In this document: positions 24,466 through 53,698 of the stretch, in pieces
Numbering within the stretch: the stretch's first letter is position 1
Layout: the number at the start of each line of letters is the position of its first letter
Origin: an uncultured Oscillospiraceae bacterium
GTDB taxonomy: Bacteria > Bacillota > Clostridia > Oscillospirales > Oscillospiraceae
Length of the DNA: 54,303 bases
Assembly (NCBI GenBank): GCA_947584295.1
Contig: CANPWM010000006.1
Location: forward strand, 1 to 54,303
Direction: 5' to 3'
The notes under the pieces: generated by a model
What the model was told of the DNA's origin: nothing
The model's input: the letters and a program-made list of their open reading frames with translations, nothing else
Database searches by the model: none
Position numbers and translations under genes: made by a program

Positions 24466-25203
24466 ATGGACAGAGAACACAGCACAGCTGTCCTGGAGCT
24501 TAACACGCCAGTTGAAGAACTCAACGATCCGATACAAGCAGAAAACAAATCTGTTATTCTGGACACGCCGGTTGAGGGCAGAAAGAAAAAATATCTGTAT
24601 CTTTTCGTCAAACGTGTGTTCGATTTGGCCTGCTCCCTTATAGCGCTTATTATCCTGTCCCCTGTCTTCCTGGTCGTTGCGATTCTGATAAAGCGAGAAG
24701 ATGGTGGGCCGGTATTGCACCGCAGGATTTGCGTGGGGAAGAACGATAAGACGTACATAATGTATAAATTCCGAACCATGATGCTTGATGCGGACGATAG
24801 ATTGGACATGTTTACTCCGCAACAACGGGAGGACTACTTACATGGTGTCAAGATAAAGGATGACCCGCGCATTACGAAAATCGGGAAATTATTAAGATCC
24901 ACAAGCATTGACGAATTGCCGCAGTTGATTTCAATTTTAAAATCAGATATGAGCCTTATTGGTCCTCGACCGGTCATTGAACGTGAAGCGGCGGAGTATG
25001 GAGAGCTTCGTGAGCATCTGTTGAGTTGCAAACCTGGAATAACGGGGTATTGGCAGGTTATGGGCAGAGGTACAGTTCCTTTTCTCAGCGAGGAAGGAAA
25101 ACAGCTTCAACTTTATTATGTGGATCATCAAAGCTTCTGGCTGGATATTAAGATTCTTTTTAAAACAGTTGCGGTTGTTATTTCAAAAGTGGGCGCACGA
25201 TGA
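24466..25203 (+). CDS. Undecaprenyl-phosphate sugar-1-phosphate transferase
   Basis: 245 aa. One N-terminal re-entrant helix (FDLACSLIALIILSPVFLVV), then the PglC/WbaP catalytic core: KREDGGPVLHRRICVGKN, YKFRTMMLDAD, KIGKLLRSTSIDELPQL (catalytic Asp-Glu), MSLIGPRPVIEREAAEY, KPGITGYWQVMGRG. It starts the repeat unit by moving a sugar-1-phosphate to undecaprenyl phosphate at the membrane. The first about 40 residues are a variable polar extension. It ends in an ATGA overlap with the next gene. Confidence 0.93.
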   Translation: MDREHSTAVLELNTPVEELNDPIQAENKSVILDTPVEGRKKKYLYLFVKRVFDLACSLIALIILSPVFLVVAILIKREDGGPVLHRRICVGKNDKTYIMYKFRTMMLDADDRLDMFTPQQREDYLHGVKIKDDPRITKIGKLLRSTSIDELPQLISILKSDMSLIGPRPVIEREAAEYGELREHLLSCKPGITGYWQVMGRGTVPFLSEEGKQLQLYYVDHQSFWLDIKILFKTVAVVISKVGAR

Positions 25204-27337: not shown

Positions 27338-27343
27338 TTCCTT

Positions 27344-28315: not shown

Positions 28316-28316
28316 T

Positions 28317-28892: not shown

Positions 28893-28948
28893 AAGTGTGT
28901 TGCATACATAACCTCTTATTGGAAAATGTTGACCGAGGAAAAAGTAGT

Positions 28949-30172: not shown

Positions 30173-30194
30173 ATAAGCAACAGGCGGTATTTCT

Positions 30195-32464: not shown

Positions 32465-33101
32465 AGTCATGGCGCAGCTTGATTTACTTGTTGAAAGATA
32501 CCCCAAATTGGCGGTTTGCAAAGAGAGCATTGCGGCGGCATATGAGATGACGGAAGCCTGTTATGCGCGCGGCGGAAAGCTCCTTATTGCCGGAAACGGG
32601 GGCAGCGCCGCAGACGCCGAGCACATAGTTGGGGAACTTATGAAGGGCTTCAAAAATCCGCGAAAGCTCCCAAAAGCAGACGCGGACAAGCTCATTACGG
32701 CAAATCCAGAGTTTGGGAAAACCCTTGCGGAAAATTTGCAGGGTGCTCTTCCGGCAATCGCTCTTGACGGCCATCCGGCGCTTTCAACGGCCTACCAGAA
32801 CGACTGCGAGCCGCTTCTATGCTTTGCCCAGCAGGTCAACGGCTACGGTGAAGCAGGCGACGTGTTCCTGGGGATTTCCACAAGCGGAAACAGTAAAAAT
32901 GTCATCTACGCTGCCGTCACCGCAAAGGCGAAAGGCATGAAGGTAATCGGCCTCACCGGGGCCAAGGATAGCAAGCTCAGTGATATGGCAGATGTGTGCA
33001 TCCGCGCGCCGGAAACAGAGACGTATATGATCCAGGAGCTCCACCTGCCCATCTACCACTGCCTGTGCCTCATGCTGGAGGAGAGATTTTTCGGAGTATG
33101 A
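32454..33101 (+). CDS. gmhA: Sedoheptulose-7-P isomerase-like SIS protein (set 2)
   Basis: 215 aa from the ATG at 32454 (GGAGGATAC site, overlapping the previous stop). SIS domain: GGKLLIAGNGGSAADAEHIV, GELMKGFKNPRKLP, GALPAIALDGHPALSTAYQN, DVFLGISTSGNSKNVIYAAV, ETYMIQELHLPIYHCLCLML. It has a longer insertion after the first motif than set 1 GmhA. It completes a second GDP-heptose gene set. Confidence 0.85.
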   Translation: MTDKVMAQLDLLVERYPKLAVCKESIAAAYEMTEACYARGGKLLIAGNGGSAADAEHIVGELMKGFKNPRKLPKADADKLITANPEFGKTLAENLQGALPAIALDGHPALSTAYQNDCEPLLCFAQQVNGYGEAGDVFLGISTSGNSKNVIYAAVTAKAKGMKVIGLTGAKDSKLSDMADVCIRAPETETYMIQELHLPIYHCLCLMLEERFFGV

Positions 33102-33937
33102 GAACGGCTGTTGTGGGCAGTTCCGGCTACATTGCCGGGTATCTGCTGAAAAGATTTGAAAATGTTTTGAAGATAGACCAGACGCCGGATGCGGATGCGT
33201 ACTTAAATCTCACAGAAGTTGAAAAGTTCGATTACTCCTCGTTGGACGGCGTTGACTATGTGATTTTCACCGCCGCGATCTCCGGGCCGGATATGTGCGC
33301 CAACGAGTTTGAGAGGTGCTGGAGCATAAATGTTGCCGGTACGGAGCGATTCATCGAAGAGGCAATACGCCACAAGTGCAGGGTGTTGTTCTTTTCCAGC
33401 GACGCAGTATTTGGGGACATTCCCGGAAAGGTCTACACAGAGCGTTCGGAGACAAGGGCCGAGACTCCGTACGGCAGAATGAAAAAGGCCGTGGAGGACC
33501 GGTTCAAGGACAAACCGAATTTCAAGGCGATACGGCTTTCATATGTGGTCTCTAAAAGGGACAGATTTGTTTCATACTGCCTCAAATGTATGGCTTCGGG
33601 TGAGACGGCGGATATCTTCCACCCGTTTTACCGAAACTGCATCACCGTCTCGGACGTTGTGAATACGGTGGACTGGCTGATTTGTCATTGGGACAGTTTC
33701 GAGCCGTGGGTACTCAACGTCGCGGGCAGCGAGCTTGTGAGCCGGGTACGGATTGCTGACGAGGTCAACAGGTCGTTTGACGACAGGCTGAAATATGTCA
33801 TCACATCTCCCGGTGAGGACTTTTACAAAAACCGTCCGAAGATAACGCAGATGAAGAGCCTGTATCTTGATAAATTCGGGATTTTAAAAAACGAACCCTT
33901 TTCAGAAAAGTTGAAAAAAGAGCTGGAGGAAAGGTAA
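33098..33937 (+). CDS. NAD(P)-dependent sugar reductase, RmlD-like SDR
   Basis: 279 aa. Short Rossmann start (RTAVVGSSGYIAGYLLKRFE), VDYVIFTAAISGPDMCANEF, FFSSDAVFGDIPG and catalytic YGRMK. The length and the RmlD-like opening suggest a 4-ketosugar reductase rather than an epimerase. It comes directly before two GDP-mannose-dehydratase-type genes, so its substrate is probably their GDP-4-keto product. It overlaps the SIS gene by ATGA and abuts the next gene. Confidence 0.7.
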   Translation: MRTAVVGSSGYIAGYLLKRFENVLKIDQTPDADAYLNLTEVEKFDYSSLDGVDYVIFTAAISGPDMCANEFERCWSINVAGTERFIEEAIRHKCRVLFFSSDAVFGDIPGKVYTERSETRAETPYGRMKKAVEDRFKDKPNFKAIRLSYVVSKRDRFVSYCLKCMASGETADIFHPFYRNCITVSDVVNTVDWLICHWDSFEPWVLNVAGSELVSRVRIADEVNRSFDDRLKYVITSPGEDFYKNRPKITQMKSLYLDKFGILKNEPFSEKLKKELEER

Positions 33938-34975
33938 ATGGCAACAAGAGCTTTAATTACCGGTGTCACCGGCATGGTGGGTTCCCACCTGGCCGATTTT
34001 CTGCTTGCCAATACCGATTGGGACGTCTACGGAGCCTGTCGCTGGAGAAGCCCCCTGGACAATGTGAGCCACCTGCTGGACAGGGCCAACAATAAGGACA
34101 GGCTCTACTTTGAGTACGCCGACCTCAACGACCAGGTGTCGCTCATAGGCCTCATCAACAAGGTAAAGCCCGACTACGTGTTCCACCTGGCAGCCCAGAG
34201 CTATCCCCTCACCAGCTTTACAGCCCCCATCGACACGCTGAACACCAACATTCTCGGTACTTGTCGTCTTATGGAGGCCCTGCGGCTTGCCATAGAGGCC
34301 GACAGTTCCTATAAACCGGTAATCCATGTGTGCGCCTCCTCCGAGGTGTTTGGAAAAATCCCCAAGGAGAAAAAGCCTGAGACAGGTATCCACGAGGAGT
34401 GCCCTTTCCACCCGGCCAGCCCCTACGCCATCTCCAAGGTGGGCACCGACCTCTTGGGTCGGTACTACGCTGAGGCGTATGGCATGACCGTCATGACCAC
34501 GAGGATGTTCACCCACACCGGTCCCCGGAGGGGAGATGTGTTCCACGAATCCACCTTCGCCAAGCAGATCGCCATGATCGAGGCGGGCCTCATTGAGCCG
34601 AAGGTGATGGTGGGCAACCTCAAATCCCTGCGTACCTACGCCGATGTGCGCGACGCGGTCAGGGCCTATTATATGTTGGTTACTGTTAATCCCATAGCCG
34701 GAGAGTATTACAACATCGGCGGGAGCTACACCTGCGAGGTAGGGGACACCTTAAATACCCTGATCTCCTACTCCACCATGAAGGACAAGATCGAGGTCGT
34801 CACGGACCCCGCCCGCCTCCGCCCCATCGACGCCGACCTCCAGGTCCCGGATTGCCGCAAGTTCAAGGCTCATACCGGCTGGGAGCCCCAGATACCCTTT
34901 GAGCAGACCATGCACGACCTGCTGGACTACTGGCGGGAGAGAGTGGGGAAAGGCGAGACGTTCTTGACGAGATAG
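33938..34975 (+). CDS. GDP-mannose (or GDP-heptose) 4,6-dehydratase family
   Basis: 345 aa extended SDR of the GMD type: ALITGVTGMVGSHLADFLLA, YGACRWRSPLDNVSHLL, FHLAAQSYPLTSFTAPIDTL, CASSEVFGKIPKEK, PASPYAISKVGTDLLGRYYA (Tyr-x-x-x-Lys), RMFTHTGPRRGDVFHES, ADLQVPDCRKFKAHTGWEPQ. GMD enzymes make GDP-4-keto-6-deoxymannose. With two GDP-heptose sets just upstream, a GDP-heptose 4,6-dehydratase (DmhA type of Yersinia and Campylobacter) is equally plausible. Confidence 0.8.
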   Translation: MATRALITGVTGMVGSHLADFLLANTDWDVYGACRWRSPLDNVSHLLDRANNKDRLYFEYADLNDQVSLIGLINKVKPDYVFHLAAQSYPLTSFTAPIDTLNTNILGTCRLMEALRLAIEADSSYKPVIHVCASSEVFGKIPKEKKPETGIHEECPFHPASPYAISKVGTDLLGRYYAEAYGMTVMTTRMFTHTGPRRGDVFHESTFAKQIAMIEAGLIEPKVMVGNLKSLRTYADVRDAVRAYYMLVTVNPIAGEYYNIGGSYTCEVGDTLNTLISYSTMKDKIEVVTDPARLRPIDADLQVPDCRKFKAHTGWEPQIPFEQTMHDLLDYWRERVGKGETFLTR

Positions 34976-34990
34976 TGCTGGGGGTATGAT

Positions 34991-35992
34991 ATGAAGAAAA
35001 CTATTCTTGTGACCGGAGCTGGCGGGATGGTCGGCTCCCATATGGTGGAACTCCTCCACGACCGGGGCGAGAATGTGATAGGTACCTACTACCGCCCGAC
35101 GACGGATATAAGCGAGCTACCGTGGGAGATCAAAATGATCGAGTGCGACGTGCGTTATTCGGAGAGCGTAGAGAAGGTTATCATGGAATACATGCCGGAG
35201 CAGATATTCCATCTTGCGGCGCAAAGCTATCCCACCGTGTCCTGGGACCGGCCCTATGAGACCATCGAGACGAACGTGAATGGCACAGTCGCGGTCTATG
35301 AGGCTGTCAAAAAGGCACGCAAGATTGTGGACAAACAGTATAATCCCATGGTGGTAGTCGCCTGCTCTAGCGCGGAATACGGAGAGAGTTTGAATTTACT
35401 GGCTGGCAGGGGCAAGGATGTATTCATAGATGAGACGACGCCGCTCCTGCCGCTGCACCCCTATGGGGTCAGCAAGGTTGGGCAGGACCTTATATCCTTT
35501 CAGTACTATATGAACGATCATATTCGCTGCATCCGGGCCCGGATATTTAACTCCACCGGCACCCGAAAGGTGAACGACGTCACATCGGACTTCACCCGCC
35601 GGGCCATTGAAGCGGAACGTGCGGGTAAATTTGAGCTGCGAGTGGGCAATCTTGAGACACGGCGGGCCATCATGGACCAGCGGGACCTGGTGTCTGCGTT
35701 GCTACTCCTGGCGGAAAAGGGAACGCCGGGGGAGGCGTATAACATCTCCTCCGAACACATCTACCAGATGCGCGATATCGTGAGTATGATCGAAGCACAG
35801 ATGGACCATACCTTTGAAATCAAAGTGGACCAGGCCCTGCTGCGGCCTACGGACGAGAGCGTCATCGCCGGGGATATCACGAAGCTGCAGCGAGATACCG
35901 GCTGGAAGCAGCAGATCCCCATGGAGCAGACGGTGGCGGATATGCTGGGGTATTGGAGAAGAAAATTGAAAGGTGATTCAGGATGCCACTAA
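34991..35992 (+). CDS. Second GDP-sugar dehydratase/reductase-type SDR
   Basis: 333 aa, related to the preceding protein: ILVTGAGGMVGSHMVELLHD, FHLAAQSYPTVSWDRPYETI, ACSSAEYGESL, LHPYGVSKVGQDLISFQYYM, RIFNSTGTRKVNDVTSDFTR, GDITKLQRDTGWKQQIPMEQ. It could be a second dehydratase acting on another GDP-sugar, or a GDP-6-deoxy-sugar 4-reductase, which shares this fold. The stop overlaps the next gene by 10 bp. Confidence 0.78.
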   Translation: MKKTILVTGAGGMVGSHMVELLHDRGENVIGTYYRPTTDISELPWEIKMIECDVRYSESVEKVIMEYMPEQIFHLAAQSYPTVSWDRPYETIETNVNGTVAVYEAVKKARKIVDKQYNPMVVVACSSAEYGESLNLLAGRGKDVFIDETTPLLPLHPYGVSKVGQDLISFQYYMNDHIRCIRARIFNSTGTRKVNDVTSDFTRRAIEAERAGKFELRVGNLETRRAIMDQRDLVSALLLLAEKGTPGEAYNISSEHIYQMRDIVSMIEAQMDHTFEIKVDQALLRPTDESVIAGDITKLQRDTGWKQQIPMEQTVADMLGYWRRKLKGDSGCH

Positions 35993-39057: not shown

Positions 39058-39109
39058 TTTATTTTAACTATATGGATTATAGACTTGTTTCGATATGGGA
39101 GAGTATGCA

Positions 39110-40327
39110 ATGCGTGGGAGACAAATAAAAATATATCCATATAACTTACTGATACTTCTTTTTATCATTCCTGCTTATATTAGCAGCAAACCGGAGCTTC
39201 ACCTGTTGTTCCAGATTTGGGTCGTGCTTCAGATTATTGCCGTTGTGTGTTTGTTTACTCTATATGTTCTTCAAGACAAAATGAAGTGCGCGATGATCAA
39301 TGTTATCTTGCTGCTATCTCTTTTAGCGGCCATATCCGCAACGATCAACGACGGTTCGCCATTTGCCATTGGAAGTGATTTCGCGGCCAATATTGGAATC
39401 GCCCTGTATATATATCGTGGAATGAATAAAAACCAAAAGCGGTTTTTGAAAACATTAGCGATAACTTTGTGCAGTTATGTGATAATCAATCTAGTCATTG
39501 TCTTGCTTTTCCCAACTGGAATCGCTTCGGGGAGGATCGGCCAATATGTATGGTTTTTGGGTCAAAAGAATAGCCTGCTCCCATATATCGTTGATGCCTC
39601 GATTGCTTTAGTCCTATACTTCTATGCCGAATATGGGAAAAACACAGCAAAAACTTTTGCGGTAGTTCTTTTGATGTGCAGCACGGCGTTGTTTGTTAAC
39701 TCAGCTAACTTTCTTGTTATTGCGGCGTTGATGGTGCTCGGAATGTTGCTGGAGGTTACTGTAAAGAACAAAAATATCTTATTAAAGCTTCTTTCCGGAC
39801 AGAAATATTTTATTCTTGTAGTCGCTTTCTTTTTGTTCGTTATGCTCTTTAGCCAGAACAATCTGTTTATGCAATCGTTCACGAAGCTTATAGGAAGGGA
39901 TATTACATTCAGCGGCAGAACATTGGTGTGGGAAATAGCGCTTGAACAAATAAAAGCTCACCCCATAATTGGGGTGGGAACTGGCTTTACATATGTGGTA
40001 AGCAATTGGTCTAATACTATGGTACACGCCCACAGCATTTACCTTGATATCGCCGTCCGATTTGGGATACCAGCTTTAGGGCTTGTACTCATAATGATTG
40101 TAATTACCTATCGGAGAAGCAGAGCCATAAAATCACCGCTTGCCTTTTTCTATCTTACGTTATATTTAGTCGGGGCTGTTTTTGACGTTTATTCATTATA
40201 TACGCTGATTCTGCCGTGCATGTTAATCAACCAGGCAAATCCGGTGGTGATTAATTTGACACGATCGCGACAGGAGGTGAAATTCTTTGAGGGAGTGGTT
40301 TCAAAGGATAATATCATTGAGAAATAA
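39110..40327 (+). CDS. wzy: O-antigen polymerase/ligase-type membrane protein (Wzy)
   Basis: 405 aa from the ATG at 39110 (GGAGAG site); ATG 39095 is the alternative. About ten hydrophobic segments. A long hydrophilic loop holds the typical GRTLVWEIALEQIKAHPIIG, VGTGFTYV and HAHSIYLDIAVRFGIPALGL (O-antigen ligase Wzy_C-type motif with His). In a locus with Wzx, CpsC and CpsD, it is the predicted polymerase joining repeat units outside the membrane. The next gene starts 41 bp before its stop. Confidence 0.88.
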   Translation: MRGRQIKIYPYNLLILLFIIPAYISSKPELHLLFQIWVVLQIIAVVCLFTLYVLQDKMKCAMINVILLLSLLAAISATINDGSPFAIGSDFAANIGIALYIYRGMNKNQKRFLKTLAITLCSYVIINLVIVLLFPTGIASGRIGQYVWFLGQKNSLLPYIVDASIALVLYFYAEYGKNTAKTFAVVLLMCSTALFVNSANFLVIAALMVLGMLLEVTVKNKNILLKLLSGQKYFILVVAFFLFVMLFSQNNLFMQSFTKLIGRDITFSGRTLVWEIALEQIKAHPIIGVGTGFTYVVSNWSNTMVHAHSIYLDIAVRFGIPALGLVLIMIVITYRRSRAIKSPLAFFYLTLYLVGAVFDVYSLYTLILPCMLINQANPVVINLTRSRQEVKFFEGVVSKDNIIEK

Positions 40328-41191: not shown

Positions 41192-42323
41192 GTGACAACA
41201 AGACGTGAAAATAATTTTGATCTGCTCAGGATTATTAGCTGTATTGCCGTTATATTCATTCACGTGAGTACAGAATATATCAGATGGCTACCTGCAGCAT
41301 CAACGGCAAAATTACAGCAGCTTCAACAGACACGGGGTGGGTAATCTTCCTGTTTAATACATTATCGCGTTTTTCTGTACCCTGTTTCGTGATGCTCTCG
41401 GGTGCGTTTATTTTAGGGAGCCCCTATAACGGCGACAAGAAATTTTTCTATAGGAAAGCCCTTAAAAGTACGATGCTCACAACAGTGATTTTTCAGTACT
41501 ATATACTGTCTATTCTATGCTCAAGGCAGCATTTGGGAATATATATGTTCATGATGATGGTATTTTTGCAGTTTTAAAGCCTTTGTACTATACATTGACC
41601 GGCAGACCTTTTTTCCACATGTGGTATTTGTTTATGCTCTCCGGATTGTATTTTGTTACGCCATATGTAATAAGGGGAACAGAGATACTTAAATCAAAAG
41701 GGATAGATTTGTATGGCAAACCGGCTTGGGTGTTTCTTGCGTTGGCGAGCATCAGCTACTGGACAAGCTCTCATAAACTGGGATGGGATATTGGGGTACA
41801 GTTTTTATATTTGTCGTACTATATGGTTGGATATGCGATTTATCGATACTCAAAAAACCATAAAAACAATATTAGAGGGTTGGGCCTGATAGCGCTGGGG
41901 GCCGTTGTAGGGAGCGGTCAGGGGATATGTAGATATTTGACGTTTTCCAATGTCATGGATCTATCATGGACAGGTATTGATGTCTTTGCGTGCGAGGGGC
42001 TGGATCCGTTCACAGTGGTGTCATCTGTATTGATTTTTTCGGGATTTTCACTGCTAAAGATTAAAAAGAGTTTTTCAGCTCTCTCGTCATATATGTTCCT
42101 AGTTTTCCTGATTCACGCGGGCGTTTGGGATGTGATGTGCAATACAGTAATCAGAAAGCTCTCGTTTATAAGACAGAGTGTCCTGGCAATCCCATTTTGC
42201 GTAGTGATTATATTTTTTCTTTCTCTTATTGCGGCATACATATATAAATCACTTTGGAACAGATTTGATACTCGTTTTAATTTTACAGAAAAGTTCTTTA
42301 AGATATTTAAGCTTGCTGATTAA
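41192..42323 (+). pseudogene. Acyltransferase-3 family gene with two frame shifts
   Basis: The product is split over three frames: TTRRENNFDLLRIISCIAVI and FIHVSTEYIRW from GTG 41192, then WVIFLFNTLSRFSVPCFVML and SGAFILG from about 41311, then LYYTLTGRPFFHMWYLFMLS to 42323, a single 377-aa acyltransferase-3 protein (about ten helices, RxxH-like FIH motif). Adding one A to the A4 run at 41308-41311 and one T to the T5 run at 41489-41493 restores the frame throughout. As given, the gene is broken. Such enzymes O-acetylate capsule sugars. Homopolymer sequencing errors or slippage are possible explanations. Confidence 0.75.
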
Positions 42324-42984: not shown

Positions 42985-44430
42985 ATGTATCAAGGGAATA
43001 ATATTCTAAAGCATTTTACCATCATCGGCGGGGGTACTGTTGTTAATATGTTTGTGGGTCTTATTACCGCCCCAATAATCACGCGCCTTGTTGACCCAAA
43101 TGAGTATGGCCAATTATCAATTTTTATTCTTTATTCCAATATTGCCGTGATGGTACTTTGCTTGGGAATGGATCAATCTCTGGTAAGATACTTTTATGAA
43201 AGCTCAGATGAAGGGTTTAAACGAGCTCTCCTTATAAAATGTGTCCAGATCCCTTTACTCGTTACGCTTTCCCTTGGTGCGGTGATTTCGTTGCTGGCTC
43301 TTTCCAGAGCAGTGAGTTTTGAGTTCTCATCCGCTGTGATGGTTCTGCTGTGCCTTTTCACACTGGCGCAACTGGTTTACCGATTTAGTTTGCTCTTGGT
43401 GCGCTTGGAATATAAAAGCAAGCTGTATTCTCTCTTAAACATACTGCAAAAATTGTCCTATGTGTTACTGGCAATTGTTTTACTATTTCTAATCCAAGGG
43501 CATGATTTGGAAATTCTCTCGGTGGCAAATTTGGCTGCAGTATTCATATGCATGATGGCCAGTATATTTGCCCAAAAGGAATTTTGGAATGTAAAGAAGA
43601 ACAATAGCGCTTCTTGCTCAATCCCATTATCGGAGCTTATAAAATACGGATGGCCGTTTATTATATCAATGGGCTTGACAACCTTGTTTCAGACGATTGA
43701 CCAGATTTCTTTAAAGCTATTCAGTACTTACGCGCAGGTGGGGATATACGCATCCACCATGACCCTTGTTCATATATTTGCTATCGTTCAGTCTACTTTC
43801 AATACCCTGTGGGCTCCTATGGCGGTGGAACATTATACTAAGGATCCTGATGAGCGTAGCTTCTATCAGCGAGGAAACCAAATCATCACGGTCATTATGT
43901 TTTTTATTGGAATAACACTCATTCTATTCAAGGACATATTCGCAATCCTTCTTGGGGAAAAGTACCGAGAGGCAGCTTACATTCTGCCGTGTCTGATTTT
44001 TAATCCAATCATGTTCACGATTTCTGAGACCACAGTCAGTGGACTTGTTTTTATGAAAAAAAGCAAGCAGCAAATTCTTGTTGGGCTGATTTCGTGTATT
44101 ACTAACGCGATTGGAAATATGCTTCTGGTTCCCCGCTTTGGCGGACAAGGTGCGGCAATTTCAACGGGTTTTTCTTATATTGTCTTTTTTTCAATGCGGA
44201 CAGTTCTGTCAAACAGATACTTTAAAGTTAATTTTAAACTTGCAAGATTTTATCTTTTAACTTTAATCGTTTTCGCATATTCCTTATACAATACCTTTGT
44301 AAAATTTGGCGTTGGAGCGATATTAGGTTACTTGATATGCACTTTTTCGCTGGTCATTTTGTATTGGGAAACCGTTAAGTGGGGCGCAAATTACATTATT
44401 TGTTTATTGAAGGAATTGACATCCAGATAG
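42985..44430 (+). CDS. wzx: Wzx-type polysaccharide flippase
   Basis: 481 aa with about 12-14 hydrophobic segments across the full length (MATE/PST superfamily): HFTIIGGGTVVNMFVGLITA, PIITRLVDPNEYGQLSIFIL at the N terminus, later GWPFIISMGLTTLFQTIDQI, WAPMAVEHYTKDPDERSFY. It moves the lipid-linked repeat unit across the membrane. It is AT-rich, in the core of the locus, 14 bp after the acetyltransferase. Confidence 0.92.
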   Translation: MYQGNNILKHFTIIGGGTVVNMFVGLITAPIITRLVDPNEYGQLSIFILYSNIAVMVLCLGMDQSLVRYFYESSDEGFKRALLIKCVQIPLLVTLSLGAVISLLALSRAVSFEFSSAVMVLLCLFTLAQLVYRFSLLLVRLEYKSKLYSLLNILQKLSYVLLAIVLLFLIQGHDLEILSVANLAAVFICMMASIFAQKEFWNVKKNNSASCSIPLSELIKYGWPFIISMGLTTLFQTIDQISLKLFSTYAQVGIYASTMTLVHIFAIVQSTFNTLWAPMAVEHYTKDPDERSFYQRGNQIITVIMFFIGITLILFKDIFAILLGEKYREAAYILPCLIFNPIMFTISETTVSGLVFMKKSKQQILVGLISCITNAIGNMLLVPRFGGQGAAISTGFSYIVFFSMRTVLSNRYFKVNFKLARFYLLTLIVFAYSLYNTFVKFGVGAILGYLICTFSLVILYWETVKWGANYIICLLKELTSR

Positions 44431-45567: not shown

Positions 45568-46881
45568 ATGGACGGGCCTTTCAATATAAGTAATTGGTTA
45601 GAACATCTGGATAGGAAGATTCACGTCTCCATCCGACGCATTCCTTTTTCCTCCTGTACTCCCTGGTACTACGACAAATCCGTCGGCGAGATCCGTAACC
45701 CTGGAGGGAGCTTTTTCCGGGTGAAGGGGCTCCGTGTGTTGGAGGGGGAACGGGTAGTTGTGGAACAGCCAATCATTCTCCAAGATGAAATTGGTTACCT
45801 CGGTATCATCCGCAAGCGTATCAATGGCGAATTCCACTACCTGATGCAGGCGAAGATCGAGCCGGGGAACGTGAACAAGATCCAAATTTCTCCCACCATC
45901 CAGGCTACAAAATCCAACTTCACCCAGAAGCACGGCGGCAAAAAGCCGGCGTATCTGGACTATTTCATCAACGCCGAGAAATACAAGATCGTCGTGGATC
46001 AGATCCAGTCGGAGCAATCCTCCCGGTTCCAGGGCAAGCGCAACCGAAACATCGTCATCGACGTGGGCGATGAGGACGTGGAGATCCTTCCATCGCACAT
46101 GTGGATGACTATGCCGCAAATCAAAGAGCTCATGCGAGTGGACAACCTTGTGAACATGGACACCCGCACTGTGCTGTCCTGCCTGCCGCTGGAGAGCCCG
46201 GAATACTTGGAGCAGGTCACCGATGAAGCTTTGAAACGGTCAATCATTGGCCAGCAGCCAAGCAATCTCACAGAAATTTACCACTACATAAATAACTTCA
46301 AGATGTTTGACGAGACCGAACGGCGGCTCGTGCCGCTGAGGTCGCTCAAAAGCTGGGAAATGCGGGACGACGAGATTGTCTGCCGGGAGCCTTACAGCTT
46401 CAAGGTGATCTTCTGCGACATCGAGATCGAGGGCCGCGAGGTCAAGCACTGGTGTCAGCCGCTTTTCGAGGCGGCGGGAATCGCCACCTTTGGCCTCCTG
46501 ACTCGCGTAAACCAAGGCGTTCGTGAGTTTCTGGTCCGGGCCACGCCGGAGGTCGGTTGCTTCGATAAAATCGAGCTGGGCCCATCCGTCCAGCGGGAGT
46601 ACATTCACGATGAGACCAGGTACACCGCTGTGGACAAGCTGTTTGATGAACACCTGAAAACCGGCCAGGGCGTGAAGTTTGACACACTTCTCTCCGAGGA
46701 GGGTGGGCGCTTCTACCATGAGCAGAACAGGAATGTCATTGTTGAGGTCGCCCCGGACGAGCTGCCGAAGCCGCCGGAGGGGTATTTCTGGACGGACTAC
46801 AAAACCTTGGGGGCGCTTTTGAAGATCAACAACTGCCTGAACATTCAGCTTCGCAATCTCTTATCTGTATTGGAGTGGTGA
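45568..46881 (+). CDS. NDP-hexose 2,3-dehydratase
   Basis: 437 aa from the ATG at 45568 (GAAGAG upstream; the TTG at 45541 is weaker). Two homologous halves, each with a conserved block: FRVKGLRVLEGERVVVEQPI, LGIIRKRINGEFHYLMQAKI, PTIQATKSNFTQKHGGKKPA, RNRNIVIDV..., and again FGLLTRVNQGVREFLVRATP, EVGCFDKIELGPSVQREYIH, RNVIVEV. This is the EryBVI/SpnO/UrdS family, which removes the C2 hydroxyl of dTDP-4-keto-6-deoxyglucose. It is well known from actinomycete antibiotic pathways and rare in capsule loci. Two bp ahead of its usual partner reductase. Confidence 0.9.
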   Translation: MDGPFNISNWLEHLDRKIHVSIRRIPFSSCTPWYYDKSVGEIRNPGGSFFRVKGLRVLEGERVVVEQPIILQDEIGYLGIIRKRINGEFHYLMQAKIEPGNVNKIQISPTIQATKSNFTQKHGGKKPAYLDYFINAEKYKIVVDQIQSEQSSRFQGKRNRNIVIDVGDEDVEILPSHMWMTMPQIKELMRVDNLVNMDTRTVLSCLPLESPEYLEQVTDEALKRSIIGQQPSNLTEIYHYINNFKMFDETERRLVPLRSLKSWEMRDDEIVCREPYSFKVIFCDIEIEGREVKHWCQPLFEAAGIATFGLLTRVNQGVREFLVRATPEVGCFDKIELGPSVQREYIHDETRYTAVDKLFDEHLKTGQGVKFDTLLSEEGGRFYHEQNRNVIVEVAPDELPKPPEGYFWTDYKTLGALLKINNCLNIQLRNLLSVLEW

Positions 46882-46882
46882 C

Positions 46883-47890
46883 ATGGACAAGGTTAGGATC
46901 GGGGTCATCTGCCCCTCTGAAATAGCGTTTCGCCGCTTCATGCCGGCGATCCAAAAATGCGAAAGTGCCGAGTACATCGGCGTCGCCCACGCCAGCGCGG
47001 AGGAGTGGGATGGGAATGTCCCCGATGGCCTTGTGGACGCGGAGCTTGCCAAGGCGAAGAGCTTCCAGAAGGAGTACGGCGGAAAGGTCTACGACAGCTA
47101 CGAGGCGCTTCTGTCCTCATCGGACATAGACGCGGTGTATCTCCCTCTTCCCCCGGCACTGCACTATAAATGGGCGAGGAAAGCCCTTGAAAATGGCAAG
47201 CACATTTTCCTTGAAAAGCCGTCCACCACGAGCCTCGGCAACACAGAGGACTTAATAAATCTTGCAAGAGAAAAGCTCCTTGCCGTCCATGAGAACTATA
47301 TGTTCGCCTTCCACAAACAGCTTGAGGAGATAGCGGGCATCGTCAATAGCGGCGAGCTGGGGGATGTGAGGCTCTACCGCATCGCTTTTGGATTTCCAAG
47401 GCGCGCGCAGAATGACTTCCGCTACAATAAATCCCTTGGTGGCGGAGCGCTTTTGGACTGCGGAGGCTATACCTTAAAGCTGGCGACGATGCTCCTTGGT
47501 GACACGGCAAAGATCGCCACATCGCGGCTTAACTACATGGACGGCTTTGAGGTGGACATGTACGGCAGCGCCACCATGGTCAACGACCGGGGGGTGACGG
47601 CACAGCTCTCCTTCGGCATGGACAACAGCTACAAGTGTGAGCTGGAGATATGGGGGAGCAAGGGATGCCTGACCACCGGCCGTATCCTGACCGCCCCTGA
47701 AGGTTTCGAGCCCACAGCGGAGATAAAAGTAGGAAATGAGACCCAGACAGTAAAGCTTTCCGCGGACGATACATTCAAAAAGTCTATCCAAAAGTTCTGC
47801 TGGTGCGTGGCGGATGACAGGGAGCGTGTAGAGAACTACGCTGCCATCGGCCGACAGGCGGAGCTGGTAGAAAATATCAAGGAGGCGTAA
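46883..47890 (+). CDS. Gfo/Idh/MocA 3-ketoreductase of deoxysugar path
   Basis: 335 aa. Rossmann start RIGVICPSEIAFRRFMPAIQ, substrate loop VYLPLPPALHYKWARKALEN, GKHIFLEKPSTTSLGNTEDL (EKP motif), LAVHENYMFAFHKQLEEI and GGGALLDCGGYTLKLATMLL (DxGxY-like). The KijD10/SpnN/UrdT group of this family reduces the 3-keto group left by the 2,3-dehydratase. Position directly behind that dehydratase supports this role. The two genes are translationally linked. Confidence 0.85.
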   Translation: MDKVRIGVICPSEIAFRRFMPAIQKCESAEYIGVAHASAEEWDGNVPDGLVDAELAKAKSFQKEYGGKVYDSYEALLSSSDIDAVYLPLPPALHYKWARKALENGKHIFLEKPSTTSLGNTEDLINLAREKLLAVHENYMFAFHKQLEEIAGIVNSGELGDVRLYRIAFGFPRRAQNDFRYNKSLGGGALLDCGGYTLKLATMLLGDTAKIATSRLNYMDGFEVDMYGSATMVNDRGVTAQLSFGMDNSYKCELEIWGSKGCLTTGRILTAPEGFEPTAEIKVGNETQTVKLSADDTFKKSIQKFCWCVADDRERVENYAAIGRQAELVENIKEA

Positions 47891-47893
47891 ATC

Positions 47894-48466
47894 ATGGCCG
47901 GAGTTAAAATAACCGAACTCGAATTAGCTGGAGTAAAGGTCATAGAGCCTACCTATTTTGAGGATAACCGGGGGTATAGTGCGGAGGCATACAATAATCG
48001 GACTCTCCGGGAGTATGGTATCAATACAAAATTTGTGGTGGATTATATCTGCTTTAACAAAGAGGCAGGGACAATCAGGGGGATTCATTTTCAAAATAAT
48101 CCCCATCCCCAAGTGAAGCTTGTACGCGTACTTCACGGAGAGATTTTGGATTTTGTTGTCGATTTACGTAAAGACTCTCCGACCTACAAGAAATGGACGA
48201 GCATGATTGTTTCTGAAGAAAATCGAAAACAGCTTTATTTACCCAGCGGCTACGGTCATGCGTATGTGACACGGGAGCCTGGTACGGTGGTGCTCTATAA
48301 ATTCGACGATTACTATGACCGCAGGCTTGTGCGGGCGGTGCGCTGGAACGATCCGGAACTGGGATTGGATTGGAATATTAATGACCCGGTGCTTTCGGCA
48401 TCAGACAGTAGAGCGCCTTTCCTGCGTGAAAGTGATGTCAATCTTACCATGGAGGAAAACGCCTGA
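47894..48466 (+). CDS. rmlC: RmlC-type dTDP-4-ketosugar 3,5(5)-epimerase
   Basis: 190 aa cupin from the ATG at 47894 (GGAGG site). VIEPTYFEDNRGYSAEAYNN, INTKFVVDYICFNKEAGTIR, GIHFQNNPHPQVKLVRVLHG (catalytic His), EILDFVVDLRKDSPTYKKW, LYLPSGYGHAYVTREPGTVV, YKFDDYYDRRLVRAVRWNDP. It turns D- into L-configured 4-ketosugars. No RmlD is found in this block, so its product is probably not rhamnose. The stop overlaps the next start (TGATG). Confidence 0.9.
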   Translation: MAGVKITELELAGVKVIEPTYFEDNRGYSAEAYNNRTLREYGINTKFVVDYICFNKEAGTIRGIHFQNNPHPQVKLVRVLHGEILDFVVDLRKDSPTYKKWTSMIVSEENRKQLYLPSGYGHAYVTREPGTVVLYKFDDYYDRRLVRAVRWNDPELGLDWNINDPVLSASDSRAPFLRESDVNLTMEENA

Positions 48467-49461
48467 TGAAAACGGCCATCGTCACTGGTTCTGGTGGGTT
48501 CATCGGCGGAGCCATGACTACTTTTTTGCTGGACAAGGGCGTGAAGGTCTACGGGGTGGACATTTCCGAAAAGGCCCTCGCACGCCACGCAGGGCGGGAC
48601 GGCTTTACCCCGGTCATTGCGAAATTTGGAGATTACCCCAGGCTCCACGAGATGATACATGATGACGTGGACGTGTTCTATCACTTCGCATGGCAAGGCG
48701 TCTTCGGAGAAGCCTTCAAGGACTATCATCTGCAACTTTCCAATGCCGCTTATGCCGGGGACGCAATCAACGAGGCCATCAAAATAGGTTGCAAAAAGTT
48801 TGTCCTCGCTGGAACTATGAACGAGTACGAGATGGATAATTATATCAAGGCAGATTACATAGAGCCTCGGTATACGTATATATATTCTGCTGCTAAACAA
48901 ATCGCTGAGGCTGTTTGCAAGACGCTGGCGTTTAACAAGGGGATAGAGTTCGACTGCGGCAGGATAGCGATGGCTTACGGTGAGAATAATCGCTCCCTGA
49001 TGGTTCCCAATGTAGTCATGAAAAATCTGCTCACAAACACCCCCTGCAAGCTTGTGGAGGGTACGAACCTCTACGATATGATATACATTGATGACATCGT
49101 CCATGCTTTTTACGCCATAGGCGAAAGCGGTGTCAATATGAAGAGCTACTATGTGGGCCACAGGAAGATATGCACATTCAGGGAACTCATGGAGAAAATT
49201 GGGGCGATACTTAACCCCGATTGCCCACTTTTTTTCGGCCAATACCCGGACACGCCGTCCGGGGTGGACTATGCCCACATCGACCTTGATGCCCTTTACC
49301 ATGACACAGGCTTCGAGTGCGGGGCCAATTTCGAGGAGAGTATCATGAAAACGGCAAATTGGATCAAAGCTGAAATGATTCCCGAAAAATCCCAGCGGGG
49401 GGGGGTAATTTATAACCATATAATCTTCCTCTATGCCACCCGAAAGGCGGTGGCGGCATGA
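48466..49461 (+). CDS. NAD-dependent sugar epimerase/4-ketoreductase, G9 near end
   Basis: 331 aa extended SDR: AIVTGSGGFIGGAMTTFLLD, VFYHFAWQGVFGEAFKDYHL, KFVLAGTMNEYEM, catalytic YIYSAAKQIAE, VEGTNLYDMIYIDDIVHAFY. It is a candidate 4-ketoreductase for the trideoxysugar. The normal C terminus probably ends near MKTANWIKAEMIP. A run of nine G (49397-49405) then carries the frame through SQRGGVIYNHIIFLYATRKA to a TGA overlapping the next ATG. With 8 or 10 G it would stop at about 49408-49413 instead. It is paralogous to the next gene. Confidence 0.82.
   Translation: MKTAIVTGSGGFIGGAMTTFLLDKGVKVYGVDISEKALARHAGRDGFTPVIAKFGDYPRLHEMIHDDVDVFYHFAWQGVFGEAFKDYHLQLSNAAYAGDAINEAIKIGCKKFVLAGTMNEYEMDNYIKADYIEPRYTYIYSAAKQIAEAVCKTLAFNKGIEFDCGRIAMAYGENNRSLMVPNVVMKNLLTNTPCKLVEGTNLYDMIYIDDIVHAFYAIGESGVNMKSYYVGHRKICTFRELMEKIGAILNPDCPLFFGQYPDTPSGVDYAHIDLDALYHDTGFECGANFEESIMKTANWIKAEMIPEKSQRGGVIYNHIIFLYATRKAVAA
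49397..49405 (+). repeat. G9 homopolymer at 3' end of SDR gene
   Basis: Nine consecutive G in the last 70 bp of the 48466 gene. Only the nine-G state (or plus/minus three) extends translation to the start codon of the next gene; other states stop about 50 bp short of it. Confidence 0.9.
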
Positions 49462-50378
49462 GAACGGCTATTGTCACAGGGGCAGGCGGCTTCATCGGGG
49501 GAGCATTGACGGAGTTATTGCTCGACAAGGGCATTATCGTCTACGGTGTTGACATCTCCGAGAAACTACTTGCAAGGCACGCTGGAAAGGCTGGTTTCCA
49601 CCCCATTATTGCGGATTTTTCAAAATACGCTCGACTTCATGAGCTGGTCAATGATGATATAGATGTTTTCTACCACTTTGCTTGGAAAGGCTACGGAAAA
49701 GACACGCAGAACTTTGACGTGCAGATTAATAATGTAATTGGCACAGAGAAAGCATGTGAAGCCGCTGGAATAATTAGGTGCAGAAAGTTTGTTTTTGCAT
49801 GTTCAAGTTATGAGTATCAGAAGAGTTATCTCAATGGCAAGACTGGATTATGTAGCGTTTATGGCGCTGCCAAAGCAGCATCAAGATCTTTTGCAGAAGT
49901 TGTTTCTCACCGTATGGGTATGCAGTTTTGTGGTGCTGCATTTACTAATGTTTTTGGCATTGGCGATAGATCTAGCAGGTCAACCAACACAATAATCAGA
50001 AAGCTTCTTAGAGGAAAGGACATTAACGCCACCAAAGGGGATGACTTATATGACTGGTCATATATTGATGATGTCGTTGGTGGCCTTTACGCAGTTGGAG
50101 AGAAAGGTATAGATGGAAAGGAATACTATGTTGGAAGCAATCGTCTTAGGCCGTTCAAAGACATTATTACTGAAGTGAGAGATATTGTATCTCCTGGCTC
50201 AGAGATTCATTTTGGCACATTTGAGGATAATGCTTATGTAGATTATACCAATATTGACGTGTACCAGCTATACAGAGATACAGGATATTATCCACTCTCT
50301 GATTTTAAAGAGAGTATAATTAAAACAGCAAAATGGTTACAAGACAAGGAGACAGATAAATATCTGGCTGATTATTGA
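49458..50378 (+). CDS. NAD-dependent sugar epimerase/4-ketoreductase (paralog)
   Basis: 306 aa extended SDR. The N-terminal 75 residues closely follow the previous gene (VTGAGGFIGGALTELLLDKG, DISEKLLARHAGKAGFHPII, FYHFAWKGYGKDTQ). After about 49,700 both the protein and the base composition diverge, becoming AT-rich. Catalytic SVYGAAKAASRS; GDDLYDWSYIDDVVGGLYAV. Start ATG overlaps the previous stop by ATGA. It is the second candidate 4-ketoreductase or epimerase of the deoxysugar block. Confidence 0.82.
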   Translation: MRTAIVTGAGGFIGGALTELLLDKGIIVYGVDISEKLLARHAGKAGFHPIIADFSKYARLHELVNDDIDVFYHFAWKGYGKDTQNFDVQINNVIGTEKACEAAGIIRCRKFVFACSSYEYQKSYLNGKTGLCSVYGAAKAASRSFAEVVSHRMGMQFCGAAFTNVFGIGDRSSRSTNTIIRKLLRGKDINATKGDDLYDWSYIDDVVGGLYAVGEKGIDGKEYYVGSNRLRPFKDIITEVRDIVSPGSEIHFGTFEDNAYVDYTNIDVYQLYRDTGYYPLSDFKESIIKTAKWLQDKETDKYLADY

Positions 50379-50417
50379 TAGGTTGTTAGGACAAATTATA
50401 TCGGGAGGAGAAATATC

Positions 50418-51758
50418 ATGAATTGGAGTAGCAGAGAAGAGGCTAAAGAGAGTATAAAAAAGGTTATTGCGGATTATTATACTCAATTTATGAAAAAAGG
50501 AGAGTATATCCCGGGAGAACGGATACAATACGCATCGACGGTGTTTGACGAGAGAGAGCTGTGTTCAGCGGCAGACGCACTTCTTGATTTCTGGTTGGGG
50601 GCAGGTAAGCGTGCGAGTGAGTTTGAGCGGGACTTTGCAAAATGGCTGGGAGTTAGATTCTGCAGTTTGGTGAATAGTGGTTCCTCTGCAAATCTCTTGG
50701 CAGTTAAAGCTCTGACGATCCCTGAATTGGGCGACAGACGTATTATGCCAGGAGATGAAGTGATAACTGCCGCTTGCGGATTTCCAACCACAGTTACCGC
50801 TATAATTAACTGTGGGGCGGTGCCAGTTTTTCTTGATGTCACAATTCCACAGTATAATTTGGATGTGAGCCGTCTTGAGGAGGCATATACCAGCAGGACA
50901 AAAGCAGTTATGATTGCGCATACGCTGGGTAATCCATTTGATTTGTCTGCTATTAAGTCGTTCTGTGACAAGCACAATCTTTGGCTTATTGAGGATAATT
51001 GCGATGCGCTTGGTGCCGAATACACGATAGGTGGGATAACGAAGTACACAGGAACATGGGGAGATATTGGTACCAGCAGTTTTTATCCCCCTCATCATAT
51101 AACGATGGGTGAAGGTGGATGCGTTTATACCAATAATCCAATTTTGCATAACGCTATAGTTAGTTTCAGAGATTGGGGTAGAGATTGTGTGTGTCCTCCG
51201 GGACATGATAATTTCTGCGGCCATCGGTTTGATGGGCAACATGGGGAATTACCAGTCGGATATGACCATAAGTATGTGTTCAGCCGATTTGGTTTCAATC
51301 TGAAAATAACAGAAATACAAGCGGCTATTGGCTGTGAACAGTTGAAAAAGTTGCCTGATTTTATTGAGCGCCGTCGCCATAATTGGAAGTATCTGCGGAG
51401 CGCCCTCAGTCCGCTGGAGAGTAAATTTATTATGCCAGAACCGGCTGAAAACAGTACCCCATCTTGGTTTGGATTCCTCCTGACGGTTCGTGAGGGAAGC
51501 GGACTAAATAGGAACAAGATTGTTCAATATCTTGAACAGAATAATATTCAGACCAGACTGCTTTTCAGCGGCAATTATGTTCGTCAGCCTTGCTTTGACG
51601 GATTAAGAGGGTCCAATTTATATCGTGTAGTCGGCAACCTCGATAACTCAGACTGTATAACAGATAATACTTTCTGGATTGGGGTGTATCCAGGAATGAG
51701 CGACAGTATGCTTGACTATATGGTAAAGATAATTTTTGAGGCGGTACAACAGGCATAA
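50418..51758 (+). CDS. PLP/[2Fe-2S] sugar 3-dehydrase, RfbH/E1-SpnQ type
   Basis: 446 aa, the RfbH length. DegT/DnrJ fold: FCSLVNSGSSANLLAVKALT, DEVITAACGFPTTVTAIINC, EDNCDALGAEYT. The Schiff-base Lys is replaced by His in SFYPPHHITMGEGG, the hallmark of the 3-deoxygenating enzymes. Cluster cysteines are present: Cys in EDNCDA, then RDCVC and NFC (C-x61-C-x-C-x7-C, matching the E1 pattern). It removes the C3 hydroxyl with electrons from a reductase; no E3-like reductase is in the window. A GGAGGAG site precedes the ATG. AT-rich. Confidence 0.9.
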   Translation: MNWSSREEAKESIKKVIADYYTQFMKKGEYIPGERIQYASTVFDERELCSAADALLDFWLGAGKRASEFERDFAKWLGVRFCSLVNSGSSANLLAVKALTIPELGDRRIMPGDEVITAACGFPTTVTAIINCGAVPVFLDVTIPQYNLDVSRLEEAYTSRTKAVMIAHTLGNPFDLSAIKSFCDKHNLWLIEDNCDALGAEYTIGGITKYTGTWGDIGTSSFYPPHHITMGEGGCVYTNNPILHNAIVSFRDWGRDCVCPPGHDNFCGHRFDGQHGELPVGYDHKYVFSRFGFNLKITEIQAAIGCEQLKKLPDFIERRRHNWKYLRSALSPLESKFIMPEPAENSTPSWFGFLLTVREGSGLNRNKIVQYLEQNNIQTRLLFSGNYVRQPCFDGLRGSNLYRVVGNLDNSDCITDNTFWIGVYPGMSDSMLDYMVKIIFEAVQQA

Positions 51759-51800
51759 TAAAAGCCAGCGCCGCAAAAAAAGAAATCGGAGAAATGGTTC

Positions 51801-52676
51801 ATGAAAGGTATTGTTTTGGCCGGGGGCAAGGGGACGCGGCTCTACCCCAATACGATTTCCGTTTCCAAACAGCTTTTGCCTGTCTATGACAAGCCACTCA
51901 TATATTACCCGCTTTCGGTCTTGCTTCTTGCGAATATCCGGGATATCCTGGTCATTTCCACACCCCAGGACATCGGAAACTACAAAAACCTCCTGGGAGA
52001 CGGCTCGCGCCTTGGCGTGAGCATTACATACACCGTGCAGGACAAGCCCCGGGGGTTGGCGGACGCCTTTATTTTGGGCGCGGATTTCATCGGCTCCGAC
52101 AGCGTGTGCCTTGTATTGGGGGACAACGTCTTTTACGGCCAGTATTTCTCCAGTATCCTGCAAAAAGCCCAGCAGCAGGCGGAGACTCACGGCGCGGCGG
52201 TCTTCGGCTATCCCGTGAAGCACCCGGAGGCCTTCGGCGTGGTGGAGTTTGACGACAGCGGTAAGGTCATCTCCATCGAGGAAAAGCCCCAAAATCCCAA
52301 ATCCAATTACGCCGTTCCGGGACTCTACTTCTACAACAACGACGTGGTAGAGATAGCAAAGAACGTGAAGCCCTCCCCGAGAGGCGAGATCGAGATCACG
52401 TCCATCAACAACGAATACCTCCGGCGCGGCCGGCTCCAGGTGACCCTGATGGGCCGGGGAATGGTATGGTTGGACACCGGCTCCCCTAGAGGGATGCACA
52501 AGGCCAGCGCCTTTGTCCAGACGGTCCAGGATATGCAGGGCTTCTACGTCTCCTGCATTGAGGAGATCGCTTGGCGCAGGGGCTTCATCACCACGCAGCA
52601 GCTCCGGAAGCTCGGCGAGGAGCTGAGTATGACGGAGTACGGACAGTATTTACTCTCAATTTGCAAGGAGAATTGA
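51801..52676 (+). CDS. rmlA: Glucose-1-phosphate thymidylyltransferase
   Basis: 291 aa, the classical RmlA length: [129 protein letters not shown]. It makes dTDP-glucose. The gene is GC-rich like the backbone and directly followed by rmlB. Confidence 0.96.
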
Positions 52677-52678
52677 CA

Positions 52679-53698
52679 ATGACCATCATCGTCACCGGCG
52701 GAGCCGGATTCATCGGCTCCAACTTCATCTTCTATATGCTGAAGGCCAATCCGGACTGCCGCATCGTCTGCCTGGACAAGCTCACCTACGCCGGGAACCT
52801 GTCAACTCTGGCGTCCGTCATGAAGAAACCCAATTTCCGCTTCGTTAAGGCGGACATCTGTGACCGCGAGGCGGTGGACAGGCTCTTCGCGGAGGAGAAG
52901 CCCGACGTCGTTGTTAACTTCGCGGCGGAGAGCCACGTTGACCGCAGCATTGAGGATCCCGGCATCTTCCTGGAAACCAATATCCTCGGTACCCAGGTAC
53001 TGATGGACGCCTGCCGGAAATACAATGTGAAGCGATTCCACCAGGTCTCCACCGACGAGGTCTACGGCGACCTGCCTCTGGACAGGCCAGATCTGTTTTT
53101 CACGGAGACGACACCGATCCACACAAGCTCCCCGTACAGCGCCTCCAAGGCCAGCGCCGATCTTTTAGTGATGGCCTACCACCGCACCTATGGCCTGCCC
53201 GTGACCATAAGCCGCTGCTCCAATAACTACGGCCCCTACCAGTTCCCGGAGAAGCTTATCCCGCTTATGATCGCCAACGCCCTCAACGATAAGCCCCTGC
53301 CGGTCTACGGCGAGGGCCTCAATGTGCGCGACTGGCTCTACGTGGAGGATCACTGCAAAGCCATCGACCTTATTCTCCGGGGCGGCAAGATAGGGGAGGT
53401 CTACAACATCGGCGGCCACAACGAGATGCGCAACATCGACATCGTGAAGCTCATCTGCAAGGAGCTGGGCAAGCCCGAAACGCTCATTACCCACGTCACC
53501 GACCGCAAGGGCCACGATATGCGCTATGCCATCGACCCCACAAAGATCCACGCCGAGCTGGGCTGGCTCCCGGAGACGAAATTCGCCGATGGCATCGTCA
53601 AGACCATTCGCTGGTACCTGGCCAACCGCCCCTGGTGGGAGGAAATTGTCAGCGGGGAGTACCAGAATTACTACCGCAAAATGTACGAAACCCGTTAA
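52679..53698 (+). CDS. rmlB: dTDP-glucose 4,6-dehydratase
   Basis: 339 aa from the ATG at 52679 (AAGGAG 8 nt upstream, at the rmlA stop). [87 protein letters not shown] (Tyr-x-x-x-Lys), [55 protein letters not shown]. It makes dTDP-4-keto-6-deoxyglucose, the entry compound for the deoxysugar block. Last gene of the locus, followed by a terminator. Confidence 0.96.

Follow-up and report, generated by a model that had tools for sequence, protein, structure and literature searches.

According to passages of a review (PMC8987622), trideoxyhexose chemistry is known from actinomycete antibiotics, E139 and E190 are the catalytic residues of the 2,3-dehydratase EvaA, and the C3-dehydrase SpnQ can take electrons from ferredoxin or flavodoxin pairs. 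We analysed a stretch of 54,303 nucleotides from an uncultured Oscillospiraceae bacterium (contig CANPWM010000006.1 of GCA_947584295.1; hereafter the window), which is contig C6 of an assembly (G000) of 2.35 Mb that is 94.8% complete and divided into 123 contigs. Eight contiguous, co-directed genes at 45568–53698, no two neighbours more than 42 nt apart, close a Wzy-type capsule locus. An initial annotation, made from sequence alone, had read the block as a trideoxyhexose route of the SpnO/SpnN/SpnQ or UrdS/UrdT/UrdQ type, encoding RmlA, RmlB, a doubled 2,3-dehydratase, a Gfo/Idh reductase directly behind it, RmlC, an E1/RfbH enzyme and two short-chain dehydrogenases/reductases (SDRs). Family models confirmed every one of these genes in its place (NDP, CDP and dTDP, nucleoside, cytidine and deoxythymidine diphosphate; PMP and PLP, pyridoxamine and pyridoxal 5′-phosphate):

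45568..46881, + strand, NDP-hexose 2,3-dehydratase of the EvaA family with two PF03559 halves (419 bits against a cut-off of 25; Glu98, Glu149)
46883..47890, + strand, Gfo/Idh sugar 3-ketoreductase like PDB 3rbv (200 bits to 3rbv)
47894..48466, + strand, RmlC-type 5- (or 3,5-) epimerase (TIGR01221, 176 bits against 155.75)
48466..49461, + strand, SDR1, probable 4-ketoreductase of cassette subclade A (extended SDR; YSAAK motif; tree)
49458..50378, + strand, SDR2, probable 4-ketoreductase of cassette subclade B (extended SDR; YGAAK motif; tree)
50418..51758, + strand, RfbH/E1-type C3-dehydrase dependent on PMP and [2Fe-2S], CDP-type by descent (NF011936, 669 bits against 423)
51801..52676, + strand, RmlA, glucose-1-phosphate thymidylyltransferase (TIGR01207, 456 bits against 360.65)
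52679..53698, + strand, RmlB, dTDP-glucose 4,6-dehydratase (TIGR01181, 499 bits against 365.1)

On balance we favour the view that a dTDP-2,6-dideoxyhexose cassette took in an E1 enzyme of the CDP type and so came to make a dTDP-2,3,6-trideoxyhexose for the capsule. A more specific version, to which we give slightly less than an even chance, holds that this recruitment was independent and filled an exchangeable slot in a clostridial capsule cassette for dTDP-2,6-dideoxyhexose, that the enzyme converged on 2-deoxy substrates (T61G, Y288F), and that a gut Clostridium bears a capsule with a neutral 2,3,6-trideoxyhexose. RmlA and RmlB would make dTDP-4-keto-6-deoxyglucose, from which the 2,3-dehydratase and the Gfo/Idh ketoreductase would remove O2 to leave dTDP-4-keto-2,6-dideoxyglucose. 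The recruited RfbH would remove O3, using PMP, its [2Fe-2S] cluster and electrons from a housekeeping ferredoxin or flavodoxin; RmlC would epimerise C5 and one SDR would reduce C4, and the resulting dTDP-2,3,6-trideoxyhexose would be used by a capsule glycosyltransferase. We infer that RfbH takes the 2-deoxy intermediate, and likewise in what order the steps run, that the sugar is L-configured and that the capsule incorporates it. The block has no dedicated reductase, which is no obstacle because SpnQ can use ferredoxin or flavodoxin pairs. The presence of RmlC suggests an L-sugar, while the C4 configuration is left either way because two different SDRs are present; alongside the main route, the second of these may lead to a 2,6-dideoxyhexose as well.

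As references standing in for UrdS/T/Q and SpnO/N/Q we used EvaA, the PDB 3-ketoreductase, E1 and ColD. EvaA was the sole PDB sequence matched by the 2,3-dehydratase at E ≤ 0.001, and Glu98 and Glu149 align with its E139 and E190; both are kept in 74 of 74 aligned dehydratase rows, a set that includes copies of the window gene. The best PDB match of the Gfo/Idh protein was 3rbv, named ‘Sugar 3-ketoreductase’, with the first differently named entry at 84 bits. The Lys of its EKP motif and Tyr196, which we take to be catalytic in the 3-ketoreductase, align with that enzyme. The phage collection held no match to the dehydratase.

For RfbH, alignment placed His226 at E1 His220 and Cys195, Cys257, Cys259 and Cys267 at what we presume, from the numbering of the E1 enzyme, to be its [2Fe-2S] cluster cysteines, in agreement with the E1-type dehydrase with His for the PLP lysine and four cluster cysteines that had been described initially. 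The block likewise lacks a sugar aminotransferase, as had been claimed, since RfbH is the sole DegT-family protein among the eight. The initial annotation had noted no RmlD in the block; across the whole assembly the best RmlD match reached 54 bits, with the cut-off at 224, and RfbF (49 against 300) and RfbG (100 against 278, this best match being the window's own RmlB) fell short of theirs as well. The only evident source of an NDP-4-keto-6-deoxyhexose for RfbH is therefore dTDP-linked. Two other products were rejected: dTDP-rhamnose, for want of an RmlD over the cut-off, and, as a simple answer, the CDP-3,6-dideoxyhexose suggested by the name of the RfbH model, for want of RfbF or RfbG over theirs.

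The descent of RfbH is a different matter. Its nearest PDB sequence is the CDP-sugar E1 enzyme 3bcx (476 bits), with the ColD-type entry 2gms at 187 bits. In a tree of 49 rows, including 13 Streptomyces enzymes, it pairs with the RfbH of locus L104 (genome G067, 73% identity) with support of 100/100; no other RfbH in 400 genomes of the family exceeded 68% identity to it. The 13 Streptomyces enzymes, 10 of which have a dehydratase or 3-ketoreductase nearby, stand apart. Acquisition of a Streptomyces-type C3-dehydrase gene is thus rejected on the basis of the tree. Clustering of the E1 homologue with CDP-sugar enzymes had been named at the outset as a result that would refute the proposed route; at the level of phylogeny it does so cluster, which counts against an antibiotic-type enzyme. 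The phylogeny does not settle the substrate, however, because the CDP genes are missing from this assembly. The SpnO/N/Q- or UrdS/T/Q-type route originally proposed therefore stands only in part: every enzyme class is present, the checked catalytic residues are intact, RfbF and RfbG are missing, and there is a precedent in Streptomyces, where RmlB, RfbH, 2,3-dehydratase and Gfo/Idh genes are contiguous in 4 of the 13 plasmid regions fetched; but RfbH is CDP-type by the tree and absent from the cassette of relatives.

These relatives were sought by scanning the genome_contigs collection, which yielded 17 loci with a related dehydratase, 10 of them in metagenome-assembled genomes named ‘Lapin’ (probably rabbit gut). 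Twelve loci (L003, L005–L007, L009–L014, L016 and L019) have the ketoreductase, RmlC and one or more SDRs behind the dehydratase, and in eight of them both RmlA and RmlB lie in the stretch; L003 is 89–91% identical to the window at the dehydratase, ketoreductase, RmlA and RmlB. An enlarged set, with further genomes, comprised 33 loci, of which L005/L072 and L011/L208, each pair on contigs of equal length, are probably duplicates and several are short (e.g. L076, L213 and L214). RfbH at more than 120 bits was found in none of the 33, some of the stretches being short, and it is therefore an add-on; since it is not part of the cassette in relatives, we infer its in-line use. A gene resembling Glf (UDP-galactopyranose mutase; PF03275 shown for L005) was present at more than 300 bits in 17 of the 33 (L003, L005/L072, L006, L007, L010, L012–L014, L019, L071, L073, L074, L077, L078, L209 and L210). 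It often lies just before RmlA, and in L003, L005 and L007 it sits between SDR and RmlA, the slot that RfbH occupies in the window. This gene may be a dTDP-deoxyhexose pyranose/furanose mutase making a 2,6-dideoxyhexofuranose, comparable to Fcf2. The cassette of the relatives looks like a modular dTDP-2,6-dideoxyhexose cassette, and its ancestral product was likely dTDP-2,6-dideoxyhexose, with RfbH an addition, because RfbH is absent from relatives and the Glf-like gene is in its slot. The comparison suggests that the 2-deoxysugar cassettes of Clostridia consist of a fixed frame and exchangeable tailoring genes.

Gene spacing and composition agree weakly with such an addition. Only two intergenic gaps of the window's operon are long, and they lie on either side of RfbH (39 and 42 nt; elsewhere −4 to 3); the G+C content at third codon positions (GC3) is low in the interior genes (RmlC 0.48, SDR1 0.62, SDR2 0.37, RfbH 0.41) relative to the frame (0.71–0.83). 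Both signs are weakened by L003, which has a 42-nt gap and a lower-GC3 interior without RfbH, and the second also by L007 and L010, which show no clear GC3 pattern. The same signs, together with the absence of RfbH from the relatives tested, could be taken to mean that the cassette makes a 2,6-dideoxyhexose only and that RfbH is a recent, non-functional or idle acquisition. We consider this very unlikely: the reading frame is full length, the active-site His and all four cluster cysteines are kept, and the gap of 42 nt recurs in the RfbH-free cassette L003.

Two further variants of the cassette were seen. In L079 and L080 the dehydratase and ketoreductase adjoin a DegT-type aminotransferase, and RfbF and RfbG are present with no RfbH in the stretch; this is possibly a different, amino-deoxy variant. 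In L018 (Marinilabiliales) the genes behind a 2,3-dehydratase encode a DegT aminotransferase and then a Gfo/Idh reductase, which may represent a 2-deoxy-amino variant from beyond Bacillota.

Seventeen columns of the RfbH alignment tell the 13 Streptomyces rows apart from 80 full-length non-Streptomyces rows, and the window enzyme departs from the CDP state at five of them: R41T, T61G, S158T, Y288F and T411S. At positions 41, 61 and 288 the CDP type has R, T and Y, the window T, G and F, and the Streptomyces enzymes mostly A, A and F; the RfbH of a Rhodococcus locus (L130) has A, T and F. Tyr288 is invariant in all 80 full-length non-Streptomyces rows, with Phe in the 13 Streptomyces rows and L130. 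ColD, whose substrate has manno C2, aligns Phe at 288 and Thr at 61, the latter beside a gap of one residue. One simple possibility is that an equatorial C2-OH is contacted by Thr61 and Tyr288, which would then be lost with a 2-deoxy substrate; as substrate evidence, residues 41, 61 and 288 are suggestive only.

Like the absence of RfbH from the 33 related loci, several features of the enzyme weigh against its recruitment to a 2-deoxy substrate. Together with L104 it nests in a clostridial clade of CDP-labelled and unlabelled rows, which also holds one CDP-labelled row from a Desulfobaculum plasmid. It keeps the CDP state at 12 of the 17 columns and has the Streptomyces state at only two (288 and 411), while five proteobacterial CDP rows and L043 have that state at 4–6. 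The nearest RfbH, L104, has T41, G61 and R290, yet its genome G067 shows no 2,3-dehydratase and no RfbF (there RfbH borders on a run of N that is probably a scaffold gap); L130, although beside a 2,3-dehydratase, keeps Thr61; Arg290 is also found in one CDP-labelled row, L156; and Y to F is an easy change.

The L130 locus itself, on plasmid NZ_CP018064.1 of Rhodococcus sp. 2G, brings together genes for a 2,3-dehydratase, a Gfo/Idh protein, an SDR, glycosyltransferases and methyltransferases with that for an RfbH of very divergent sequence; no polyketide gene is annotated in its 15-kb stretch. Its RfbH has Phe288 and Arg290, as does that of the window.

The SDRs bear on how many sugars are made. 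A PDB search gave no match for SDR1 and only two distant epimerases for SDR2. A tree comprised 51 rows, each scoring 105 bits or more against one of the window's SDRs: 21 on the CDP side (19 from RfbH loci, plus L079 and L080 from loci with RfbF, RfbG and dehydratase) and 30 on the cassette side (28 from dehydratase cassettes and the window's two). A branch with 100/100 support splits the 2,3-dehydratase-cassette SDRs from those of RfbH or RfbF/RfbG loci. Both window SDRs lie on the cassette side, in different subclades, and neither is a 4-ketoreductase of the RfbF/RfbG/RfbH-locus clade; RfbH therefore came without a 4-ketoreductase of the CDP-locus kind. This matters for the main rival explanation, in which two sugars are made: the 2,3-dehydratase branch would lead to dTDP-2,6-dideoxyhexose, RfbH would convert dTDP-4-keto-6-deoxyglucose towards a dTDP-3,6-dideoxyhexose, and one SDR would serve each branch. 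The presence of two SDRs of different subclades fits this, as do the descent of RfbH from enzymes whose substrate bears a C2-OH (from the tree), the completeness of the relatives' cassette for a 2,6-dideoxyhexose without RfbH, and the low GC3 shared by SDR2 and RfbH (0.37 and 0.41). Nevertheless, the type of both SDRs is that of the 2,3-dehydratase cassettes, RfbH-free cassettes with at least two SDRs exist (L003, L007, L010, L011, L013 and L073), T61G and Y288F would be left unexplained, and we know of no dTDP-linked 3,6-dideoxyhexose pathway. We regard the two-sugar explanation as unlikely, and prefer a single route through RfbH to a trideoxyhexose.

The combination of genes on which this route depends is rare. 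The dehydratase was found in 12 and RfbH in 28 (the window's included) of 394 genomes of the order, with both in three (G000, G095 and G384); for 381 genomes of the class the numbers were 9, 35 (the window's included) and three (G000, G095 and G1093). Among all these genomes, the window alone has the two on one contig. In G095 and G1093 RfbH sits with RfbF and RfbG, while G384 has its dehydratase on a 4-kb contig, RfbH at the start of a 7-kb contig and RfbF on a third; the G384 dehydratase and RfbH could be neighbours, and may be a second case of the combination. Of the 16 genomes behind the 17 related loci, G407 alone carries RfbH, which there neighbours RfbF on a different contig.

RfbH could also still serve a CDP-3,6-dideoxyhexose route, with RfbF and RfbG in the unassembled part of the genome. 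The CDP-type phylogeny of RfbH and the state of the assembly (94.8% complete, 123 contigs) would allow this, and RfbH and RfbF are on different contigs in three genomes of the order (G321, G386 and G384). We think it very unlikely, since RfbF and/or RfbG lie in the fetched stretch around RfbH in 21 of 27 other genomes of the order and in 12 of 12 additional RfbH loci, whereas the window's RfbH is in the interior of a contig, within a dTDP operon, and accompanied by two cassette-type SDRs. The remaining six genomes comprise the three just named and G067, G181 and G033, in which no RfbF was detected; in these three, RfbH adjoins a run of N, is close to the end of its contig or occupies a contig of 3 kb. 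Loci of the CDP-3,6-dideoxyhexose type, with RfbH and RfbF and/or RfbG, are recurrent in Clostridia (L082, L084–L088, L090–L092, L094, L096–L103, L105–L107, L200–L206 and L215–L219). A scan of viral contigs with RfbH gave two matches, one with RfbF and RfbG.

The capsule setting is provided by genes upstream, which include Wzz, LytR-CpsA-Psr, CpsB/CapC, an initial sugar transferase, a WecG-type glycosyltransferase, two GT4 glycosyltransferases, Wzy, a GT2 glycosyltransferase and Wzx, with one DUF6625 gene between Wzx and the cassette. Three of these lie at the following positions:

24466..25203, + strand, initial bacterial sugar transferase (PF02397, 203 bits)
39095..40327, + strand, Wzy-type polymerase (PF04932)
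42985..44430, + strand, Wzx-type flippase (PF01943)

No partner glycosyltransferase common to the window and the 33 related loci was found, those of the window giving no match above 42% identity. An acyltransferase-3 gene at 41284–42323 is split over two frames (41284–41577 and 41517–42323), and is either broken in this assembly or the product of a sequencing error. At 25200–35992 there are two heptose-type activation gene sets (nucleotidyltransferase, GHMP kinase, HAD phosphatase and SIS isomerase). In the second set a nucleotidyltransferase is fused to a phosphatase, and an SDR and two GDP-mannose-dehydratase-like SDRs come next; by their families, these genes probably supply heptose or deoxyheptose capsule sugars.

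Among the open-licence papers listed, none was seen to describe a capsule sugar of the rhodinose or amicetose type, which does not show that none exists, and a neutral 2,3,6-trideoxyhexose in polysaccharides is not named in the titles or abstract beginnings of the best 20 of 31 open-licence matches, which does not show that it is unreported. Olivose, a 2,6-dideoxyhexose, is one of 18 bacterial glycan sugars listed in passages of a 2026 preprint (PMC12874011), where the words ‘rhodinose’ and ‘amicetose’ are absent and the ‘trideoxy’ sugars seen are amino sugars. If the favoured reading is correct, a very non-polar class of sugar, otherwise associated with actinomycete antibiotics, would be added to the capsules of commensals, and an E1 enzyme would have switched from CDP to dTDP and 2-deoxy substrates outside the actinomycetes, with three named candidate residues. 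A design of fixed frame and exchangeable genes would, in addition, help to predict capsule chemistry from genomes.

Set against the described systems, the window shares RmlA, RmlB, the doubled 2,3-dehydratase, the Gfo/Idh 3-ketoreductase and a His-type [2Fe-2S] C3-dehydrase with the actinomycete SpnO/SpnN/SpnQ and UrdS/UrdT/UrdQ routes, but its C3-dehydrase belongs to the clostridial CDP-type clade rather than that of Streptomyces, its setting is a capsule locus of Clostridia, and RmlC and two SDRs complete the set. With the RfbF/RfbG/RfbH pathway to CDP-3,6-dideoxyhexoses (ascarylose, paratose and abequose) it has RfbH in common, by family model and phylogeny, whereas RfbF and RfbG are lacking over the cut-off and the SDRs are not of the clade found in those loci. 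The dTDP-L-rhamnose pathway shares RmlA, RmlB and RmlC, but the assembly has no RmlD over the cut-off. The same frame, with 2,3-dehydratase and ketoreductase at one end, RmlA and RmlB at the other and RmlC and SDRs inside, is seen in the other 2,3-dehydratase capsule cassettes of Clostridia (L003, L005–L007, L009–L014 and others); compared with L003, L005 and L007, the window has RfbH in place of the Glf-like mutase before RmlA.

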